This document shows, piece by piece, positions 28,590 to 60,176 of a DNA stretch of 64,000 nt. Position numbers and translations under genes: made by a program. This stretch comes from Microcyclospora pomicola (lineage: Eukaryota > Ascomycota > Dothideomycetes > Capnodiales), in assembly GCA_002786065.1 (NCBI GenBank), contig NHNY01000003.1, positions 186,001 through 250,000 of the forward strand, given 5' to 3'. Under the pieces are notes generated by a model, which was not told where the DNA came from, searched no databases, and saw only the letters and a program-made list of their open reading frames with translations. How positions within the stretch are numbered: position 1 is the first letter of the stretch; every line of letters starts with the position of its first letter.

Positions 28590-29261
28590 TTATCTCGGGT
28601 ACAGGTTCTTTTCGGTCAGCAACACTGGAAACCCAGACCCGACTGATTCCTCCTCATCAACGTCCATCAGCCGACCTGCATAGCATAGTCTTCGCCACCA
28701 GCCACTGCCAGACAGCCGAGTCTTGCCAGATGGAGAGACTGACGCTCTCTCAGAACGACGGCCCAAACATCCCCCTTTCCGCTTCAACTGCATCCGACAC
28801 TGCACACCATTCTTCCAAGATCGCGCTGCCCTGTCTCCGTCGGATGATGCGATCTGTCTCTGCGCCGCCACTAAGATCTCCTCTCGAAATTCCGTGCTCC
28901 ATCCTTTGACGCCTTCCATCGCCTCTGTTGCTACTTCTTCCTCTCTATCGTCCTCCCCCAGCTTCCACACACCGCCACCCAACCTCCCGCGCTGTGTATC
29001 CCGCTCCAACCTGAATCCATCCGCCGCGGGCAGACTAACATAGACGCCGCTCTCGAAATCGCGGTCGGGACCAACATTCGTGTCCCAGGTGTCGCACCGC
29101 CCGGAGCCAGCAAAAGTCGACCGCGTCGGCGAAAGGGCCGAGAAGTAGCTGGGAGAGAGGCTTGAGTCGGCGGCTAGGACGGAATAGGCGCCGTCTGGGG
29201 AGGTCAGGGTGATTGATGGGATGGGGGCGGGGTGGATGGTTAAGGCGGTAAGATTTGGCAT
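28590..29261 (-). CDS. Hypothetical protein, 223 residues
   Basis: An intronless frame beginning MPNLTALTIHPAPIPSITLT. The N-terminal half (to about 110) is rich in short strands and turns (PDGAYSVLAADSSLSPSYFS; ESGVYVSLPAADGFRLERDT). The middle is acidic helical (GEDDREEEVATEAMEGVKGW), and the C-terminus is basic with cysteines. I recognise no family. No signal peptide or membrane helix. The base composition and third-position GC match the coding neighbours, which is the main reason to accept it. It could bind a small ligand or be an orphan of a local lineage. Confidence 0.5.
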   Translation of the reverse strand: MPNLTALTIHPAPIPSITLTSPDGAYSVLAADSSLSPSYFSALSPTRSTFAGSGRCDTWDTNVGPDRDFESGVYVSLPAADGFRLERDTQRGRLGGGVWKLGEDDREEEVATEAMEGVKGWSTEFREEILVAAQRQIASSDGDRAARSWKNGVQCRMQLKRKGGCLGRRSERASVSPSGKTRLSGSGWWRRLCYAGRLMDVDEEESVGSGFPVLLTEKNLYPR

Positions 29262-39038: not shown

Positions 39039-40184
39039 TCATAACAGGATGAGGTAGTTGGAGGGCGCAATACCGGTATCTCCATTCTCTTTCTTGGCCT
39101 GCCACCATCGTCCCGACACGTCGCTGACTTCGAGGATCTCATGCTTCGAAAAGGAGATCTCGTTTGCATCGTCCGGGTTTGCTTCGTAGCTGTAGATAGC
39201 TTTGGCGCGGTATGGGTATTCGGATGGTTGGGCAGCCGACTCGGCTGTGGACGGCGCAGCGTTGGCCGTGACAGGTGCGAGATTAGGTTGCGAATGGTTT
39301 GCTTGGTGTTGGGCCGGGAAGGTCTGCTGCTGCTGCTGCGGCGGCGGCGCAGGTTGTGGGAAAGTCGAGGTGGGATTGTGACCCATTGCTCCAGGTGCTC
39401 CACCAGGGTAGCTAGTGACCGGCGATGACGTCTCGAAGCCAGCGAGTTGCGCTGAGTTGTACATCTGCGGTTGTTGGCTGGACGAGTGGGCGGTTTCGGG
39501 TCGCGCAAAGGACTGAGTCATGTGCCGACTGTTTCTGCTAGGTGCGTGGTCTTTGTGCAGCGCGAACGAGTCGATTGTCTGGCGATGGGCGGCATTGGGC
39601 TGGGAGCCAAAGTAGAAGATCCAGACCACCTAGTGATATCCGTCAGCAAAGCCGAAATTGATAGGCCGAGCGTTGAATGTTTGGCATACCGCAACCATGG
39701 ACAGGAGAATGAAACCTGCCGCTCCAGCCTCCTTGGCAGGGTCGGATGAGTAGATGAACGAGTTGACTGAGGATGTGGTGAACACCAGGCCTGCGGCAAC
39801 GAAGCCCACGAGCGCCACATGATAGGTGTAGACGACATCCATCCCCACGGCGACCACAACTCCGATGATCAAGCAAAACATGTATGCCAACGTCCACCAC
39901 GAGTAGTTTGGATATCCTGCGTCAATCGCCGCAACGATAGAGCTTACGAAAGCAATGAGCCAGCCCGCCTGTGCGCAACGCGATCAGTTATTGATATTAT
40001 ACAACCTGTATCTCAACTTAAGACCTACCACTGCGATTGTTGTGGTGGCGAGCGAGAAAGCATCGCCAATGATGTTGCCAAAGTCGAACTTGTTCCCTCC
40101 GCGGCGGGGGCTGTTGTTGTTGTTGTTGTTGTTGTTGTAATCCATCTTCTTCAGCGAGGGCGAACGGCTTCCAAAGTTGGGCAT
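39039..40184 (-). CDS. SHO1: High-osmolarity sensor Sho1
   Basis: Three exons (40184-40029, 39968-39690, 39629-39039; introns GTAGGT...ACAG and GTATGC...CTAG) give 341 residues. A short cytosolic N-terminus with an eight-Asn run encoded by (AAC)n is followed by four membrane helices (about 33-150: [78 protein letters not shown]). Next come a Gln/Pro-rich linker and a C-terminal SH3 domain (about 283-341: [20 protein letters not shown] ... [20 protein letters not shown]). This is the canonical Sho1 layout. It sits in the plasma membrane, binds Pbs2-type MAPKK through SH3 and feeds the HOG and filamentation pathways. The second intron removes an in-frame stop. Confidence 0.95.
40112..40138. repeat. 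(GTT)n trinucleotide repeat in SHO1
   Basis: About nine GTT units on the plus strand, read as Asn codons in SHO1 near residues 17-24. Likely length-polymorphic between strains. Confidence 0.9.
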
Positions 40185-48129: not shown

Positions 48130-49019
48130 ATGCGTGCCGGAATCTTCCTCCTCCTCGCCACTTTGGCCTACGCTGCTCCGGTAAGTCTTGCCTCGTTCTG
48201 CACAGCTCTTTGACATTTTGCTGACCGGTATCAAAGGTGGCCAAACCGAGCCATGCTGTCGAGGCACGCGCTGCTAAGCCTTCTCACGCCATCGTTGAGG
48301 CTCGTGCTTCTAAACCATCACACGCCGCTGAGGTCCGCGCTGCCAAACCTTCGCACGCAGTCGAGGCTCGTGCTGCTAAGCCATCGCACGCTGCTGAAGC
48401 TCGTGCTGCTAAGCCATCGCACGCAGTCGAGGCTCGCGCTGCAAAACCATCACACGCCGCCGAGGCTCGCGCTGCTAAGCCATCGCACGCAGTCGAGGCT
48501 CGCGCTGCCAAACCATCGCACGCTGCTGAAGCTCGTGCTGCTAAGCCATCGCACGCTGCTGAGGCTCGCGCTGCTAAGCCATCGCACGCAGTCGAGGCTC
48601 GCGCTGCCAAACCATCACACGCCGCCGAGGCTCGCGCCGCCAAGCCATCACACGCTGCTGAAGCTCGTGCTGCCAAACCATCGCACGCCGTTGAGGCTCG
48701 CGCCGCTAAGCCATCGCACGCTGCTGAAGCTCGTGCTGCTAAGCCATCACACGCCGCCGAGGCTCGCGCTGCCAAGCCATCACACGCTGCTGAAGCTCGT
48801 GCTGCCAAACCATCGCACGCCGTTGAGGCTCGCGCCGCTAAGCCATCTCCCGCAGTTGAGGCGCGCGCAGTGAATCCCACCGTACCTCGTACCGCCGCTG
48901 GGCCTCTAGCTGACGACAATCTTAGGCGCCTAAGCCAAGCCATGCTGCTTACTAAGCGGGGGGAAGAGTCGGCGGACGCTGGGGAAGTCGAGCTGTCCAA
49001 TGGGAATGAGGTTGCATGA
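48130..49019 (+). CDS. Secreted protein of nineteen 11-residue repeats
   Basis: Exon 1 (48130-48180) encodes the signal peptide MRAGIFLLLATLAYAAP. A 56-nt intron (GTAAGT...AAAG) follows, and exon 2 (48237-49019) carries the rest, 277 residues in all. Right after the signal peptide come 19 tandem units of AAKPSHA[V/A]EAR, nearly identical (one has an extra Ile, one reads PSPAVEAR). A 50-residue tail has NLRRLSQAMLLTKRGEESAD, containing the only Lys-Arg pair. There are no cysteines and no tyrosines. The unit contains one Lys, one His, one Glu and one Arg. Layout (signal, many identical short peptides, tail) resembles fungal precursors processed into small peptides, but the repeats lack a Kex2 dibasic site, so processing after single Arg would be needed. 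Function unknown. A surface or matrix protein is the alternative. Confidence 0.85.
48237..48866 (+). repeat. 33-bp tandem repeat array (19 units)
   Basis: Coding minisatellite inside the secreted repeat protein: 19 units of 33 bp (one of 36 bp). Two subtypes (Val or Ala at position 8) alternate in blocks such as V-A-A-V-A-A, which suggests spread by unequal exchange of two- and three-unit blocks. Because the unit length is a multiple of three and stop-free, frames on both strands stay open across it. Confidence 0.95.
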
Positions 49020-50416: not shown

Positions 50417-50913
<497 letters not shown>

Positions 50914-52407
50914 GTTGGAGGTTGGCTGCGAGGTTCTGGGGTGTCGTTGAAGTGAGCGAGAGTGTTCCTTGGTGGGGATGAGCGAGAGTGGGTGGAGAAG
51001 CGAGAACTTGGTGACTTGCTTTTACTGTTCGTTCCCAATTGAGGATGGGATGGCCGGTATTTATGTTCACCAGACCTCCACTGAGGTTAAGATACCCTCC
51101 AGGAAGGGCAGGTAGACTGAAACCTCGATGTTCCTCCCGTGTCAGCCGTAAGCTTGTCTTCATGCCTCCAACATGCAGGCCCCGTGGCGCGTTAGCATGT
51201 CTCTGCTGGAACACTATTAGCAGGTCAATCGCAGTAGGCGACTGCCGCCAAAGAGCAATCAACGTCGATCTTCCAGACGGGCAATCTTCTAGCACTCATC
51301 CGGCTGGACATCCGCATGGCACGGCTCGGAGCATTTCCCCAACAGACGTGTGTCTCGAGATGCCAGAGCAAATGACAGCCAGGCAACGCAACAACGTGCA
51401 AGCATCGGCGGGATCAATCCAAGCTGCTGATCACCTCTGCCTTTGTGGAGCAGTGTTGCAATGCAGACAAGAAGAATGTTCGACCGTCCGGCTGATCGCA
51501 ACTGTGTTAATGCACTATCCCAAGCCACTCAGCACCAGCGGCCGGCGGTAGATCTCTCACTGTAGAGGCCAAACAGCCGCTCGATCCATACAGAGCAACG
51601 TGTTCGTGCACATGTCGTTATTGGGGATTGGCGAACAAGCTTCTTTCCCCGGCGAGCATTTTACAGTCGTGTCATTCTTCACACGTAACACGCATCAGGG
51701 CTTTGCAGATCTTGTTCCTGATCGGCAGTCGATCCATAGATGCCGTCGTCGATCGTTCTCGCTCGGAACAAGCTGGCCTGTTGCACGCGCACCGCAATTG
51801 GACCTCCCGATCATGTTGATTTGCCGAGAATTGCAAGGACTTGCTTCGGCAAGAGACGCCATCACGCTCCCAGAAGCATCTCACCAGATCCATATCACTA
51901 AAAGTATACTCGCGATCAATTTTCACGCACCGAATATAGTCTTCAACGGCGCCATGGAGATCGACGGAGCGAGTTAAACCAGATCCGGTCACGTTCCTAG
52001 CGCAGTTGCATCTCTGTCCCGTGGTTGTGACGCAGATCCCCCGCGTCGCTCCCAAGCTGCTGTGTTTCAAGATCTGCTGGAGATCTGCACTGGACGCACG
52101 TGTTGCCCGCTCTCGTCGGAACGAGACTGATTCCAGAAGGTCGTAGGAGGTGCTCCGGATGACGGACACGCCGCCATCAACGCTGAACGTCATGGACGGG
52201 ATGGTGATAGGCAGCACGGTGGTTGCCGACGTATAACGCAAACTGTAACGAATTCAATGGTCGGGGATGTTTTATTCATGGCTGAACACTCTGGTCTTGC
52301 GCGACATCACTCGACATTCTTATAACACTCTCTCACAACAAGTCCCTGCTTGATAGCATCAATCTCTGCCAATCAGCCTCTCGTCCAGTGGAATCTCAAC
52401 AGCCATA
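50914..52407. other. Intergenic 1.5 kb
   Basis: The left part is the ribonuclease promoter. A 189-codon frame on the minus strand (51672-52241) is Cys- and Arg-rich but has no signal peptide or recognisable fold and overlaps a 125-codon plus frame; I do not accept it. The final 100 bp are the leader of the DUF3632 gene. Confidence 0.4.
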
Positions 52408-53290
52408 ATGCCGGGCTTCGCAGCAAGTCCAACGACCATGGACTCCCCTTCATACAAGGCTCTAGCCAAGTACATCGGCACTCAATCCTCGTCTCTTGAA
52501 GACACGCGGACCGCGTGCTGTAGACCAGTAGAAAAGTCGGCCACCTCTAACACAAGCACATCGGACGATGTCGAACAGCAACTGGGTCAGCTATGGAAAG
52601 GCGTGATCGCCTTGGCTGCATCAACATCGGAGGATGCTGCGAGGCAAAAGTTGGTAGATATTGTCCTCAGCATGGCCCAACAGACGAGCGTAGAGCAAGA
52701 CGGCCAAGCATATCAGGTGCAGAGCATGGAGTTATGGAAGGACCTGCCCATTTTCGGGTGGCAATTACGAGACTCTTGGAACAATGGTAAGCTCTTCCGC
52801 CCACCCAATTCCCCAACGTATAGAATAGAGAGCTGATGATGGGGGTTGTCTAGCTGCGTCAGATGACGATTCGTCGGAGATGCAACAACAATGGATCAAC
52901 CTCAATGCTTTCACGGCATGCTTCGTCGCTGCTGGACACGCCAGATCCAACAACCACCCAGACGAATCAATATACTGCATTTGGACTGTACGCTCTGCTC
53001 TCGAGGAGCAACAGCAACCCTCGGATGCCACTCTCTCTGCAGCGGCGGTATGGATCATCAACGCTGCGCCAGCACTTGAAACCTTCTCGAAGCAAGGCAA
53101 GACGTTTGACGGCAAGGTGGCCAAGGCCGGATCCCTGTTCAAGGATCAGGAATGGCGTGGGTTCTCGACCGACAGGTGGAGGAGCTGGGGTCAACGGCTG
53201 AGTGAGGTGCAGGGAGGCATTCAAGACACACAGACGACGCAACTTGTGGAGGACGCGAGGAGGGCTATGGGGGCAATCAAGGAGAGGTGA
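52408..53290 (+). CDS. DUF3632 family protein
   Basis: Two exons (52408-52786 and 52854-53290; intron GTAAGC...CTAG of 67 nt) give 271 residues. The helical core has the features I associate with the fungal DUF3632 family: LWKDLPIFGWQLRDSWNN just before the intron, MQQQWINLNAFTACFVAAGH after it, then YCIWTVRSALEEQQQPSD, AAAVWIINAAPALETFSKQG and a C-terminal WRSWGQRLSEVQ block. The N-terminal 40 residues are Ser/Thr-rich. It is an all-helical cytosolic protein of unknown role, usually present in many divergent copies in one genome. No signal peptide. Confidence 0.8.
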
Positions 53291-54007
53291 TGGCTTAGTA
53301 TCAACTAGTTTGGCTGGTCTAACACTCGGAGACGGAGACGAGGATGGGTTACTTCAGCAAGGACAACGAGGAAGCATTGATCGAGTTGACCAACCGCCAT
53401 GCTTGAATGAGCTCCATGTCCATGAATGACGAGAATGTTACCGACACGTCAGTTCTGTCATTCACCTTTGTCTTGTACCATATTCGAATAAGCAACAAAA
53501 TCGTTGTCGATTGGTCACTCTTGTCAATGCACTTCGTGACAACGGGATGTTTGCACGTGCATGTCGTGAAGATGCCCAAGGCAATCACTGGAGCATTTTC
53601 TCATTGGAACAACGTCGCTTTGAGGTCTCGACCGCCATTCGATCATCAGCAACCTGTGATTTGACCGTGATCTTTGTCGTCGATGACTGGTTGACACCGC
53701 AAAGTCCTGGGATTCAGCTCATTAGCGTCATATATGCAGCTAACCTCTCGCTAAACGTCGGCCCGCGATATAGCCTGCATTAGCTCTCGCTAAACGTCGG
53801 CCCGCACTGCACCACGCACTATCAAAACCCTCGCGTCTGGCTGCTTGTTACCCTCACCATCACCACAACATCACATTCTCTCACTTTCGTTCCGAACAAC
53901 TCGATCTTGTTCCAACATCCTCGACTTGTTCAACCTCATTCACCTTGCTCATACTTCCCACACCTTTTCCATTCCCAACAACACCAAGCACACCGTCCAG
54001 AGTTAAA
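53291..54007. other. Intergenic 717 bp with duplicated element
   Basis: 3' region of the DUF3632 gene and promoter of the coiled-coil gene. Contains the 39-bp tandem duplication listed separately and, from about 53850, a pyrimidine-rich leader typical of an expressed fungal gene. Confidence 0.5.
53745..53805. repeat. Tandem duplication in promoter
   Basis: The 22-mer ctctcgctaaacgtcggcc plus cgc occurs at 53745-53766 and again, identical, at 53784-53805 (39-bp period). It lies 200-260 bp upstream of the ATG at 54008. An identical pair could be a recent duplication or a kept pair of binding sites with core CTAAACGTCGG. Confidence 0.75.
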
Positions 54008-56745
54008 ATGGCACCAACCAGACCAACCGTTCCGGGGTTCAGACGCAAGCGTCGCGGCCAAGGCTCTAAGACAGCCGCTGCAACGAATCAGACCCCGCTC
54101 TCGACGCCCCAATCCAACCACCCTGGCGAGGACACGGACTTAGCTTCCTCCTCCCAGCACATCGACATGGACTTCGCGTCCCCACCTTCCGACGGGTCCT
54201 CCACCCCCGCCACGCCCTTTTCGACCGGTAGCCGCGAGCCTGAGCCTTACCGCCAGTCCACCGGTACCGAATCCACCAGCCTCTACCCAGCTGGCTCTCC
54301 CTGTAAGTCCCTGCGCTGCTGACCTCATCTTCAATCTTTCCTGTTCCCTCACACAAACACTTCCCACTTCATCACCTTAATGCCGTCCTTCACAACACCC
54401 ATCTTCAGTCACGGTGCCTGCTCCCACCTGGGCCTATGCACTGATGGCGTTTGCCACTCCGACGTCTGACAGTGCTGCATGCATTGATGCATCGACGCAA
54501 GCTGCTCAAACATCGCCTGGCACTCGTTGCGTGGTGACTCGCACCTTTCACGTCCCTCCGCACTTGTTCCTTGCTTCACCACCCCTCCCACTCTCACTAT
54601 CACCTCCGGATGTGCTCTCGAGCATACCGCTTGCAACTTTCGCTCGCTGCATAGAGTCTGACAAGCATGGCAGCTCCCACCACACCCATCCGCAGCAGAC
54701 CCGCCAAAGTATCTAAAAATGTCGCAGAACTCGACGAGGTTTACCAAGAAGCCATTTATGCGCTTGAGCTCCAGAAAGGAATCCTCGAGATCGACAAGAG
54801 TACTCTCAGCAGAGAAAAGGCCGAGCTGGAAGCAAAGATCGCGACGCAAACCCAGACCATACAAGAATTGGATCTGGAGTACAAGCGTGTCAAGGAGTTG
54901 AACATCAAGAAGGTCTCAACCATCTCGTCCACCCGCAACCAGCTGTCCGATGCGATTATCGCCCGCGAGACTGCCACGGACACTGTCAACAGCCTATGTG
55001 CTGAGATCGACAAGATCCGCGAGGAGCAAAAGACGCTTGAGAAAGACCGAGATGCATGGCGCCTGTCCTCCAGAGCCGAGAAAGAGCGTTTGGCCACCCT
55101 CACCGCCCGCTACAGCTCCTCTCTCACCTTGCAGGAGCAGCTCGACCAGTGTGAAGGAGAATACGACGAATTCCGCGACGCCCTCGGCAAGTACTTCAAC
55201 CTGGGTCCATTCAACGAATACGGGCAGTCCCAGATGCCGTCGCAGCAGATGTTGAAAGAGATGCTCGCCGTCAAGCACACTCTCAACAATTATATCGAGT
55301 CCGAGAAGAACACACCTGCCATCACCGCAGCAGCCCCTCCCCAGCCGTCGCTTCAACAAGAGTTGGACGACCTCAACGAAGATGGCAACATGGAAGTCGA
55401 CGATGCTGCGCACGACCCAGTGCATATCGCCCAGCAACGTATCGACGACTTGCAGACCACCCTCGACACCGTCCGGGCAGAGCTGAGCGCCACCCTCGCC
55501 CGCGAGGCGCAGTTGCTGAAGGAGAACAACCTGTTGACGATCGACCTCAGACTGGCCAACCAAGCCCACGTCGACGACAGCTTCCCCAGATGGCAGAAGG
55601 CAGAGAAAGAGCTTGCCAAAGCCAAAGACAAGCAGAAGCAGCTGATCGAGGAGAAAGAGCAGCTGGAGACACAGCTAGCAAACTCGAGCGCCATCAGCCC
55701 TGAGGCCATTGACGAAGCCAATCAAAAGTACAATGCCCTCAAAGCAGAGCTCGCCACCAGCCAAGAGAGAGAGCGGGAGTTGGCCGAGCAACGCCGCGTG
55801 GTACACCAAGAGCTGGAGCAGACCAAGATCACCCTCACCCAAGCTCAGCAGACCACCAGCAACCATGCATCGGAGGCCAAGACCGTCGTCGCCGAGCTGC
55901 AAAACCAGCTCAACGCCAGCAAGGACTCGGAGGGTCGATTGACCCACGAGGTCCGTACCATCAAGCAGGAGCTGGCGCAAGCCAAGAGTACGATCACCAA
56001 CAACCAGTACTCTGCCAACAGCAAGGCGGACGCGGCCAAGGGGCGTTTGGACCTGGTCCAAACGCAGCTCGACATCAGCCAGAGGCAAGAAGCTCACCTG
56101 CTTGAGCAAGCCCGCCGGCTGAAGGAGGAGTTGGCGGTGGCGAAGGCCGCCGCCACTCCTGCCAAGAGCGCCCCCGATGGCACCCCATCGGCGACAGAAG
56201 ACCTTGTCGCCGAGCTCAAAGGCCAGCTCGCCACCTTTAAGAAGGTGGAAGCTGAATCGCGGGAGCAGGTGCGTGCGGTGAAGGCGGAGCTCGAGCGAGC
56301 GAAGACTGAGGTCAAGCTTGCGAAGAGCGCCGCTGGGGCCGCCCCTGCTCCCGCACCCGCCCAGCAAGCTGCCTCGCAGCTGCAATTCGCGCTCACAGCG
56401 AGCAAAGCCCAAGAGACGCGTCTCGACGGGCAACTGCGCGCTGTGAAGCAAGAGTTGCAGCAGGCACAGCTTGCTGCCACCAAGACCGCCGCCGCCGCCG
56501 CAGACACGGCCGCATCCCGGGAGGGTTCGGTGCTTTCGAGCACCAGGCAGATCACCACCATTCCGTGGTGGTTGATTTGCCTCCTCCTGGCGATGTTCTT
56601 GGACGTGTTGCTGGCGTTTTGGGGTCCGTCCGAGGGGCTTTCGAGCTCCTCGGCCTCCAGTGCCGGTGGTGTGTCTTGGTGGGTTGACCCACTGCTCGTG
56701 GCGTTCGAGCAGTGGGCCGGCCTCAGGCGTGGCTGCCTGGGGTGA
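54008..56745 (+). CDS. Long coiled-coil protein with C-terminal membrane segment
   Basis: Two models are possible. Preferred: exon 1 (54008-54302, MAPTRPTVPGFRRKRRGQGS, Ser/Thr/Pro-rich) spliced from GTAAGT at 54303 to exon 2 at 54674, frame kept, 788 residues; the 371-nt intron is long for this genome. Alternative: a separate start at 54667 (MAAPTTPIRSRPAKVSKNVA), 692 residues, leaving exon 1 to another transcript. Either way, residues after the N-terminus form an almost continuous coiled coil (VAELDEVYQEAIYALELQKG; LETQLANSSAISPEAIDEAN; KAKDKQKQLIEEKEQLET). Near the end is one membrane helix, TIPWWLICLLLAMFLDVLLA, followed by about 45 residues. This resembles golgin or nuclear-envelope linker architecture, but no named family is recognised. 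Its 3' flank carries the hairpin repeat array. Confidence 0.65.
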
Positions 56746-59043
56746 GAAAGAGGAGGGGCGGCGTGGTATGGTGACATGGTTGTCTCGCGGACTTCCATGT
56801 CCTCCCTTCGTGGAGGTCATATCACGTCTGGGGGGAGGGAAAGGAGGAGGGGGTGGTGCTGGAGTGAGCGGCACGGGTATGTGACATGGTCGTCTTTCGA
56901 GATGGTCATGTCCTCCTCCATCTTCGGGGTGGATGGAGACATGCCTGTGCTGCCGGGGGTGGGGGGTTAGGAGCGGCACTGGTGTGTGACATGGTGGTCT
57001 TACGAGGCCATCCATGTCCTCCTTCACCTTCGGGGTGAATGGAGACACACTGGTGTCGTTGGGAGGAGAGGGGTAGGCGATGGGTATGTCGCATGGCTGT
57101 CGCGAGACGGCCATGCACTCCTCCACCGGCAGGTGGATGGATGGCATGCCCATTGCGGAGGAGGAGGGCGGTTGGGGTCGGTGCTTGTTTTTTGTTTCTT
57201 GTTTTTTTTGTTTTTGGGTGCGGGTGTTTGGGGGGTTTAGCATTGCATTTGCTTTTGTGATACCCACCAGGCGAGCGGCCGGCGGTGTCGCCGTGATGAT
57301 ATGAAACCTCTTTCCCGTTCTTGACCTACTCATTCCTCTCATCGTGACCTTGTTAAAGTTTCTCCCGTCCTGTCATCCTGCCATTGCCCGGAAAGGAAAA
57401 CTTTCTGAGTGACCCGCTTCAGTGCTCGAACATGTGCCTTTCCGGAAGAAGATGGAATGGATGGCTATGGGGAATGTGCTCACACTTCAACTATCAGAAG
57501 GGCTGTTCTATACCTGTCTTACCCCATCTATCACATCATTCTACAGCGTCTTCCCTCCCCGCCTGGTTGAGCAGTCTCGTCACGTCGCACGACGACTACG
57601 GCCAGCTCAACGACTACCTGCTGGCTCCGTTACAGAATACTCCGTGCTGCGGTCATCATGATGTCTTTCGTATTCAAGAGGTAGAGGCTGATGGTCTGTA
57701 GACTCCTCCGACTCTCGACGCGATGACCCCCGTCCATGATGCATATGCTAAGGTGTCGCTCTGGATGTCGAGCTTGGCTAGGTAGGTACCCTGCGGACTT
57801 TGAGTGGAGCTACATATCTTCCTATGCGGCCTTGTGAGGGTCGTTGCCTTGCAAGCCCTTCTCTCCGTTGGCAGAGTCGAGTTGATTCACTCTGCCCAGC
57901 CACGATGTTTTGATCCAGAAAGACCAAAGCAGCAAGCTTCCCTTGGCCGCGCCCAGGACGTCGAAGCGGATGCGGAGGCTGTGCCCAGTCCCATGAAGAG
58001 ATTCGCCATCGTTGACCTCTCGGGCCTCAAGGTAAAACACTTCGAGCCTGCTGAGTATGGGGTCGCCATGTGCAGGGCCGCGGGCCGGATGGAGGAAACT
58101 ACTGTTCATCGAGCCTTGGAGTACTCCCCCGAGTAGCTCGAGATTCCAGTACGGACATAAATCTACGAGAGAGCTGAGAACCGCGCACATCACGATCTAG
58201 CTGGATTGGAGCATTCGAGCGAAGTCCGAGCATACAGACTAGGCAGGGAGGTAAGGACAGATGGAGTCATGATTACTGCGGCATGACTTGAAAGGTCTTT
58301 GCCGTGAGATGTGTGGAAACCACGGCGCCTGGCCGGATACACAGGTCATCGTGGCCGCGCCACAGTATTCTCGTTCTCCGAGGACATGTCTCCTCCGTCC
58401 TGGATCTTGACATCTAGACCTAGCTCAGGCGATTGAGCGCACCATGATTCTCCGACGACGCAGTACCTGAAGTAACGCGGATTCGGCTCGGGCGATGGAG
58501 CGAACGATATTCTATAGACTGGGGCGCGCGCCGTTGTCAAAGGCCGAAAGCGCGAGCTGAAATTGGCTGTATCTAGCCGATGAACAGCGGCGGCGAATGT
58601 GCTGTGCTGTCCCATTACTGGGTTGTGGAGGGGTCGGAACTTCAACGGACCAGCACACGAAGTTCTGTCGTACCAGGGAGATTGAGAGTGATAGATACAG
58701 GTGGTGATATAGAGGCATATACAGCTTATGAGAGAGCTATCTACAATAACGAAGGCATTGGCCAATCTTCATGGTCATTGATAACATAAGGTAAGGTACA
58801 GTCAGAAACCATCAGACCCTGATCGCGTTCTTCCTGCGTCATCCTGAGGGTCTGCGTCGGTGGTGGGGGGCTGCTTCGATGGGCCTCCCAACCAAAACTT
58901 TCCACCTTCGGATTGTCGGAGAAAACAAATAACACATCGACACCGCCTCTTCTTTCTTCTCCATTACACCACTTCTTCACTACTTACCTATCTACCTGAC
59001 CTTACGAATCAAGCCCCATCACTACCCACGAAACACCGCAATC
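56746..59043. other. 3' flank of coiled-coil gene and gene-poor 2.3 kb
   Basis: The first 400 bp are the tandem double-hairpin array (own entry). A T/G-rich tract lies at 57185-57240. Between 57400 and 58760 only frames up to 139 codons occur on both strands, none convincing. A taaggtaaggtac element sits at 58787-58799. The last 150 bp are the transaldolase promoter and CT-rich leader. Confidence 0.45.
56757..57150 (+). repeat. Four tandem degenerate units, each with two hairpins
   Basis: Four units spaced 110, 105 and about 103 bp. Each starts with a GCGGC...GGTATGT-like lead, then hairpin H1 (56773-56801, 56883-56912, 56988-57018, 57091-57116), then hairpin H2 directly after it (56801-56816, 56913-56938, 57019-57044, 57118-57140). 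H1 stems are 10-12 bp with small loops (CGC, TTTCGA, TTACGA, GCGA). Copy 2 pairs GACATGGTCGTC with GATGGTCATGTC using three G-T pairs; copy 4 pairs GCATGGCTGTC with GACGGCCATGC. H2 stems in copies 2 and 3 close TTCG loops, and between copies C-G pairs are replaced by T-A pairs. The wobble pairs are G-U only if the plus strand is the RNA, i.e. in the 3' region of the coiled-coil gene. Structure was worked out by hand. Confidence 0.7.
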
Positions 59044-60176
59044 ATGACTTCCTCCCTCGACCAGCTCAAGGCCTCTGGCACCGTGAGTCTTTCCCCTCCA
59101 TCTCACTCTACACCCGCTGCGCTCCGGGAAAGGCATCCGAGCATACGCTGACCAGATCCATCCTGCCAGACCGTCGTGTGTGACTCGGGCGACTTCGCGA
59201 CCATTGGCAAATACAAGCCTCAAGATGCCACCACCAACCCGTCGTTGATCCTCGCCGCCTCCAAGAAGGAGGAGTATGCCCACCTCATCGACGAGGCGGT
59301 CGCCTACGGCAAGCAGCACGGAAAGACCATCGATGAGCAGGTGGACGCCACTCTGGACAACCTGCTCGTGCAGTTCGGCAGCAAGATTCTCGAGATCGTG
59401 CCTGGCAAGGTGTCGACTGAGGTCGATGCACGCTTCTCTTTTGACGAGAAGGCGTCGGTCGAGAAGGCGCTGCACTTGATTGAGGTGAGTTGGATAGATG
59501 GGTGGTAATAAGAGATAGGCGGTAGGATGTGGTGGACTAACAATCATTCTAGCTCTACAAGGAGAAGGGTATCTCCAAGGACCGCGTGCTGATCAAGCTC
59601 GCCTCAACATGGGAGGGCATCCGCGCCGCACACACCCTGCAGTCCAAGCACGGCATCAACTGCAACTTGACCCTCATGTTCTCTCTCGTCCAGGCTATCG
59701 CCGCTGCCGAAGCGGGCGCATTCCTCATCTCGCCTTTCGTCGGCCGCATCCTCGACTGGTACAAGGCCAACACCAAGAAGGAGTACAGCGCCGAGGACGA
59801 CCCTGGTGTCAAGTCGGTGCAGCAGATCTTCAACTACTACAAGAAGTTCGGCTACAAGACGATCGTCATGGGCGCATCCTTCCGCAACATCGGCGAGATC
59901 ACCGAGCTGGCCGGCTGTGACTACCTGACCATCGCCCCGGCTCTGCTCGAGGAGCTGTACAACAGCACCGACTCGGTCCCACAGAAGCTCAAATCGGAGG
60001 GTGCATCATCGCTCGACATTGAGAAGAAGAACTACCTCGACGACGAGGCCGGCTTCCGCTTCTTCTTCAACGAGGACACCATGGCCGTGCACAAGCTGTC
60101 GGAGGGCATCAGCAAGTTCGCCGCCGACGCCGTCACGCTGAAGAAGACGCTGCAGGAGAAGATCGAGAAGGCTTAA
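59044..60176 (+). CDS. TAL1: Transaldolase
   Basis: Three exons (59044-59082, 59170-59484, 59553-60176; donors GTGAGT and GTGAGT) give 325 residues, the usual length. The N-terminus is [20 protein letters not shown], with the intron inside the conserved start. Landmarks are the [10 protein letters not shown] phosphate-site loop, [17 protein letters not shown] with the Schiff-base Lys near 133, [31 protein letters not shown], and [18 protein letters not shown]. The enzyme moves a three-carbon unit from sedoheptulose-7-phosphate to glyceraldehyde-3-phosphate in the cytosolic pentose-phosphate pathway. High third-position C suggests strong expression. It is followed in tandem by SOD1 530 bp downstream. 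Confidence 0.97.

Follow-up and report, generated by a model that had tools for sequence, protein, structure and literature searches.

As a rule, the structured elements described for cellular mRNAs occur singly and within an untranslated region (UTR). The localization elements of yeast ASH1 are spread over the coding sequence (CDS) and the 3′ UTR. Flaviviral exoribonuclease-resistant RNAs (xrRNAs) are tandem three-way junctions in the 3′ UTR, with a ring-closing pseudoknot formed from a hairpin loop, and the double-hairpin elements of fungal mitochondria are GC-rich paired hairpins that are mobile in mitochondrial DNA. In the passages of PMC9656906 drawn on here, the prolamine and glutelin zipcodes lie in both the coding region and the 3′ UTR. 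Ascomycete 3′ UTRs are known to carry covarying structures, some of them without an assigned function, and GLY1 has a multi-stem junction; the screen behind these families drew on the unannotated parts of five genomes, and those of its finds that are tied to mRNAs lay in introns and UTRs (Gao, Jones and Rivas 2021, PMC8216456). A survey of the open-access literature yielded no description of a structured coding region, or of a tandem or three-way-junction array in a fungal UTR, like the one reported below.

We analyzed a 64-kb stretch of DNA (the window, 186001-250000 of contig C23, to which all coordinates refer unless a contig is named) in which an array of four diverged units follows a coiled-coil gene. 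Each unit is able to form a three-way-junction RNA, the plus-strand fold is preserved by paired changes among the units, and the codons chosen at the 3′ end of the gene, over its last 294, build dense hairpins. An original prediction, made from the letters of the sequence alone, had placed four diverged units in the 3′ flank of the gene, each with two hairpins; these were found at 56760-57156 with small corrections to the hairpins, the array starting 14 nt past the TGA stop (56743-56745) of the 692-codon plus-strand open reading frame (ORF). The strong structure of the coding sequence upstream of the array was missing from that prediction. Features of the locus are collected in Table 1.

Table 1. 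Coordinates of the coiled-coil gene, its structured 3′ part and the array in the window
Feature	Coordinates	Strand	Details
692-aa ORF, coiled coil and C-terminal hydrophobic segment (by eye)	54667..56745	+	
Structured coding part: last 294 codons and stop, dense local hairpins	55861..56745	+	Synonymous shuffles, stem density
Long rod-like hairpin inside CDS	56362..56477	+	−68.7 kcal/mol for 56360-56480
Y-like fold inside CDS, with UUCG-capped hairpin	56511..56597	+	Weak fifth match to the model of units 2 and 3
Another CDS hairpin with a UUCG cap, 105 nt past the first	56630..56653	+	CTTTCGAG at 56638
CDS hairpin near stop codon	56682..56722	+	14 Watson-Crick pairs, 2 G.T, 1 A.C
Unit 1	56760..56828	+	P1 56760-56771/56817-56828, P2 56773-56801, P3 56802-56815
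Unit 2	56867..56954	+	P1 56868-56882/56939-56953, P2 56883-56912 (UUCG loop), P3 56913-56938
Unit 3	56972..57060	+	P1 56972-56987/57045-57060, P2 56988-57018 (UACG loop), P3 57019-57044
Unit 4	57077..57156	+	P1 57077-57090/57143-57156, P2 57091-57116 (GCGA loop), P3 57119-57141
Linkers within the span 56829..57076	56829-56867, 56954-56971, 57062-57076	+	Rich in G, none with more than one C
U-rich tract directly after unit 4	57185..57216	+	Possible mRNA 3′ end signal

Folded singly, each of the four units gave a three-way junction (a Y shape) in which a closing helix, P1, of 12, 15, 16 and 14 bp in units 1 to 4, respectively, encloses two hairpins, P2 and P3. The prediction had seen two adjacent hairpins only and missed this outer helix, which closes both into the junction. 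Its description of the first hairpin was exact for copy 4 (11 bp, GCGA loop) and needed adjustment in copies 2 and 3, whose stems are 13 bp rather than 12; the three G-U pairs of copy 2, which has a UUCG loop, and the single bulge of copy 3, a U in a hairpin with a UACG loop, were present as described. In the second hairpin, copies 2 and 3 do exchange C-G for U-A around a UUCG stretch, where RNAfold draws a UCG loop closed by U-G instead of the four-nucleotide loop that had been proposed. The four singly folded units total 140 pairs, 22 of them G-U. No base is unpaired at the junctions of units 2 and 3, and P1 and P2 are contiguous, without an unpaired base between them, in units 2, 3 and 4; P1 of unit 4 is shorter than P1 of units 2 and 3 on both sides. 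The eight hairpin loops of the array measure 3 to 6 nt, and three of them are UNCG or GNRA tetraloops, while three others contain a UUCG stretch.

Plus-strand folding energies of units 1 to 4 were −34.6, −53.2, −55.4 and −57.5 kcal/mol (z of −4.1, −7.1, −7.5 and −8.5), and none of 200 dinucleotide shuffles equaled any unit. The minus strands of units 2 to 4 folded far more weakly, at −28.9, −38.9 and −38.9 kcal/mol, and still beat most shuffles (z of −3.2, −4.7 and −3.3). Treated as one fold, positions 56746-57160 gave a z of −8.5, with 0 of 100 shuffles equal. When the array is folded as a whole, the minimum-energy structure keeps the Y shape in units 2 to 4 and leaves the linkers joining them mostly unpaired, whereas unit 1, the weakest unit, rearranges with its G-rich linker and forms no Y. 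G-quadruplex motifs (four G3 runs, loop lengths of 1 to 7 nt) were absent from the plus strand of the window, and the array was not reported by TRF at its score limit.

A covariance model built from units 2 and 3 only was scanned over the 64-kb window with default filters. The model recovered unit 4 (36.9 bits, E of 3.3e-6) and unit 1 (25.8 bits, E of 0.0013), and a fifth match, the last at E ≤ 10, fell on the strand opposite to unit 2 (16.8 bits, E of 0.16). Such a search had been proposed along with the prediction. A further model, R2, found no other unit in 307,534 bases of the same genome, from 34 of 42 loci, with those on the gene, the array or the two protein-match places left out; its only hits were two antisense ones within the array, with E values of 3.2 and 9.8.

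Covariation among the four units, anticipated by the prediction, was scored on the model-fitted alignment of the four tandem units of this one genome. In this alignment, which is itself fitted to the fold, and compared with 500 shuffles, which do not preserve relatedness between units, both sides had changed in 14 of 40 pairs (shuffle mean 6.2, sd 1.8), pairing held in 95.3% of 149 cells (82.6% in shuffles), and the covariation score was 0.483 (0.238 in shuffles); on none of five covariation measures did a single shuffle reach the observed value. Pairing fell to 30-47% when partners were slid by one to three columns. The non-Watson-Crick cells comprised 22 G-U, 2 A-C and 5 others, with 11 more cells gapped, which agrees with the earlier claim that these pairs fit a plus-strand RNA. 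The same bias was seen in strand-neutral stems: with at least six Watson-Crick pairs, the array held 8 G.T and 0 A.C, compared with 685 and 694 in a 189-kb sample of the genome, and with at least seven, 6 and 0 compared with 274 and 305. Selection on a plus-strand RNA fold in the array is very likely, and the preference of the original prediction for such selection over a decaying minisatellite is supported by the covariation exceeding 500 of 500 shuffles, the excess of G-U over A-C and the better plus-strand folding of units 2 to 4. A minisatellite in decay, where substitutions would be independent of pairing, is contradicted by the 95.3% of cells that pair in the fold-fitted alignment against 82.6% in shuffles.

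The coding gene has no Pfam family over the cut-off. Its first 398 codons were not unusually structured, and no signal appeared before about 55855. Synonymous-codon shuffling of 18 overlapping 100-codon segments (200 shuffles each, the last 32 codons falling outside the segments) gave z values of −1.6 to +2.1 in the first 12 segments and of −4.3 to −5.9 in the last six, none of which was equaled by any of its 200 shuffles. Stricter shuffles, which kept dinucleotides exact, reached the end of the ORF and changed about one-third of the codons per shuffle in the last part, assigned the first 398 codons z values of +0.26 and −1.24, and the last 294 codons with the stop values of −4.1, −4.6 and −6.1 (0 of 100 each). 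Stems of at least seven Watson-Crick pairs numbered 10 in the 885 nt of structured coding sequence and 0 in the first 1194 nt; a genome sample of 189 kb held 377 (1.99 per kb), and no 885-nt stretch of the 19 background loci or of the window's first 55.6 kb held more than seven.

The structured coding part and the array together form an island that stands out from the rest of the genome sampled. In a scan of 1062 windows of 300 nt, all 20 of the most negative GC-adjusted plus-strand values fell in 55861-57361. Compared with a background of 5738 strand-windows, made up of the remainder of the 64-kb window and 189 kb of the same genome with the locus carrying a decayed gene copy left out, 17 of the 52 island strand-windows (11 plus, 6 minus) were lower than the lowest background z of −3.53, reaching −5.01. 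When pairs were limited to a span of 150 nt, the top three of 159 tiles of 400 nt for pairing at a probability above 0.9 started at 56801, 56001 and 56401. The island region is GC-rich. The three strongest background places, with energies at or below −140 kcal/mol, were examined for their folds and lie in GC-rich stretches with open frames. As a separate observation, the plus strand also folds much better than the minus at 39121-39301, 50701-50821 and 29041-29161, where the 300-nt windows differ by 42 to 58 kcal/mol between strands.

Relatives of the gene and of the array were sought at several levels. The coiled-coil protein had no relative at E ≤ 0.001 among the best-listed 7997 candidates, probably taken up largely by coiled-coil words, from a library rich in Dothideomycete records, residues 615-692 had none at E ≤ 1 among 78 candidates, and the protein matched nothing in the PDB at E ≤ 0.01. 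Within its own genome, the gene itself aside, three pieces of a relic on contig C1 and one weak match on C10 (E of 0.14) were found. The relic, at C1 1014033-1014952, copies only the middle of the gene (window 55577-56094), is riddled with stops, contains a short internal tandem and lies in AT-rich DNA; C-to-T or G-to-A changes make up 30 of its 39 differences from 55895-56094, so that from its sequence it appears RIP-like, as repeat-induced point mutation would leave it. No convincing array match was found in the relic stretch. The coiled-coil gene and array lie just upstream of a transaldolase gene. The neighboring transaldolase exon is 81-89% identical to its best 120 matches listed, of which the named ones are mostly from fungi such as the Dothideomycetes Teratosphaeria, Meristemomyces, Saxophila and Cercospora, which suggests a Dothideomycete host near Capnodiales/Mycosphaerellales; the top match, at 89% identity, is labeled Quercus suber and probably reflects fungal contamination of a plant assembly. 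Elsewhere in the window, two ORFs at 52408-53290 match successive parts of DUF3632 and are probably one intron-containing gene, and a 33-bp tandem repeat at 48261-48868 (132-bp higher order, 4.5 copies, 88% matches) probably consists of coding repeats.

At the DNA level, where counts are lower bounds, a search of the genome (23.4 Mb in 58 contigs) gave one match to the array, namely the array itself, and no sign of a dispersed or mobile repeat. A degenerate P2 pattern with up to two mismatches matched 83 times against 53 for a backward control; three of the 83 are array matches (exact in units 2 and 3, with two mismatches in unit 1), and the other 80 carry one or two mismatches. When 52000-60000 was compared with 4227 Rfam families, five matches with E values of 0.2 to 9.3 were returned and none was over its gathering threshold; those overlapping the array were MIR2907 on the minus strand (20.6 bits against a threshold of 60) and SNORD23 on the plus strand (17.1 bits against 64), and membership in a known family was rejected. 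A 555-aa minus-strand open frame, 55675-57342, runs antisense to the coding sequence and across the whole array. Protein coding by the array was likewise rejected, as this frame has no Pfam match at E ≤ 0.1 and the register of unit 1 differs, by eye, from that of unit 2.

Several features are common to the coding sequence and the array. Among the 13 four-nucleotide loops of the island, four are UNCG, two of them in the coding sequence and one each in units 2 and 3, compared with 5 of 255 in plus-strand tiles from the rest of the window (Fisher p of 4e-4); GNRA loops account for 2 of 13 and 14 of 255, respectively. The string CTTTCGAG occurs five times in the window, and three of these occurrences are island loops, at 56533, 56638 and 56894, the last in unit 2. 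Run with filters off on 961 nt, the model of units 2 and 3 scored the Y-like fold of the coding sequence at 17.5 bits (E of 0.0017), a value close to the 16.8 bits of antisense unit 2, and the fold was absent from the whole-window hits under default filters; as a fifth match of the unit type, it is only suggestive. In pairwise alignments of coding-sequence hairpins with array units, 98, 34, 38 and 129 of 200 shuffles were as good. Homology is therefore not significant by this measure, and the coding-sequence Y fold is regarded as similar to the units, not homologous with them. Overall, the array is probably neither a separate non-coding RNA nor a decaying minisatellite but the closing part of a single structured stretch of mRNA, about 1.3 kb long, and the array and the coding-sequence structure are likely to act in one mRNA. 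The prediction had named a 3′ UTR array or a non-coding RNA as its two readings, and we lean to the former because strong structure also spans the last 294 codons.

A typical milRNA precursor does not consist of four related Y units with tight junctions. For this locus, the idea that the Y units and coding-sequence hairpins are Dicer substrates yielding milRNA-like small RNAs is also made unlikely by the lack, within the limits of DNA search, of another genomic match to the array as a potential target. Small-RNA production keeps a place among the explanations because the genome encodes Piwi, Dicer and RdRP proteins: three Piwi, one Dicer-dimer and two RdRP matches were over the cut-off, and the Dicer-dimer match sits in a 1540-aa open frame on contig C55 together with two RNase III domain matches. 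The direct joining of P1 and P2 in units 2, 3 and 4 would suit such substrates, as would the frequent association of fungal milRNA loci with protein-coding genes noted in the portions of PMC9757828 used here.

The strand behavior of the coding sequence bears on an origin at the DNA level without RNA function, in which template switching would have produced palindromes, one of them then copied by tandem duplication. Template switching can yield perfect stems as well as compensatory changes, according to the parts of PMC8794818 consulted. In 55861-56400 the minus and plus strands fold about equally well, the plus-strand energy becoming clearly better from about 56400 onward, and the minus strand of the same three structured coding segments also beats synonymous shuffles (z of −4.4, −3.7 and −5.6; 0 of 100 each), and both observations speak for such an origin. 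Stems of the structured coding sequence contain 7 G.T and 4 A.C. Strand-specific selection is supported for the array only, not for the coding sequence at 55861-56400. We nonetheless consider a purely DNA-level origin quite unlikely: palindromes do not predict the G-U and A-C counts of the array (22 against 2) or its G.T and A.C counts in strand-neutral stems (8 against 0), UNCG loops are enriched in the island, and the coding region would have had to absorb many such events with the coiled coil intact.

Were 56760-57160 a non-coding RNA gene in its own right, only adjacent to the coding gene, this would account for the compactness of the array and for the U-rich tract behind it, which could then be a terminator of another polymerase. 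Such a gene is very unlikely in view of a structure that begins near 55861, continues past the stop codon and shows in the choice of codons, of the loop type and Y-like topology found on both sides of the stop, and of the lack of an Rfam match over threshold. The reading as part of an mRNA is favored because a separate non-coding RNA leaves the codon choice, and DNA palindromes leave the G-U excess of the array, unexplained. A decay-blocking RNA that stalls an exonuclease, akin to the viral exoribonuclease-resistant RNAs, would agree with tandem three-way junctions in a 3′ UTR at the level of architecture; the fully or nearly fully paired junctions, loops of 3 to 6 nt with no obvious ring-closing pseudoknot loop, and again the absence of an Rfam match over threshold make it highly improbable. 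Chance or base composition (a G-rich 3′ flank and an alanine-rich coiled coil) can practically be dismissed given the dinucleotide and synonymous shuffles, the covariation and the hairpin density, even though the region is GC-rich and a few GC-rich background places (15 of 5738 strand-windows at or below −140 kcal/mol) reach similar raw energies.

If the mRNA reading is taken further, the array and the structured coding sequence would belong to one transcript and serve one purpose. The structured tail of about 1.3 kb may constitute a multivalent platform of stable double-stranded modules, in which the four Y units, with C-poor linkers between them, would bind several copies of an RNA-binding protein. 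The bound protein could determine the place or the duration of translation by controlling the position, translation or decay of the mRNA. Such a recruiting platform, suggested by analogy, is a possibility that we hold with some doubt. The proposal as a whole, that the locus represents the 3′ part of one bifunctional mRNA with a structured tail acting as a multivalent protein-recruiting platform, is put forward tentatively, as is the idea of a dual-purpose gene for a fast-evolving coiled-coil protein, whose last ~300 codons would make up, with the 3′ array, a continuous structural RNA of about 1.3 kb.

Were the gene dual-purpose, its transcript would serve as a message and, at the same time, as a structural or scaffold RNA, and protein and fold would evolve under mutual constraint. 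A fold of about 1.3 kb that runs across a stop codon, is visible in synonymous codons and ends in a tandem array evolving by paired changes would offer a natural case for measuring selection on an RNA fold against selection on the encoded protein. It would also provide a cellular counterpart to repeated junction elements, which are best known from viral 3′ UTRs, and it suggests that fungal codon usage and 3′ UTR annotation may hide large structural RNAs.

Compared with known systems, the locus shares single traits with several. The mitochondrial double-hairpin elements resemble it in their GC-rich paired hairpins, but the array lies on a contig with ordinary genes and was found in one copy. 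Fungal milRNA loci, as presented in the portions of PMC9757828 used here, are likewise stable hairpins at a protein-coding gene in genomes with RNAi genes, and they differ in having one precursor where this locus has repeated, covarying Y modules. The 3′ UTR families of PMC8216456 are, in the sections drawn on, conserved between species, whereas only paralogous units of one genome are compared here, and the words "tandem," "repeat" and "three-way" do not occur in the main text of that paper. As in localized mRNAs, several RNA elements are spread over the coding sequence and the 3′ UTR of one mRNA; localization elements, however, are few and short, and here about 1.3 kb is densely folded and includes four repeated three-way junctions. 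Like the flaviviral xrRNAs, the array has three-way junctions duplicated in a 3′ UTR, and each of its four units folds in this way alone; unlike them, its junctions are fully or nearly fully paired, with short loops and no evident pseudoknot, and they belong to a cellular gene.
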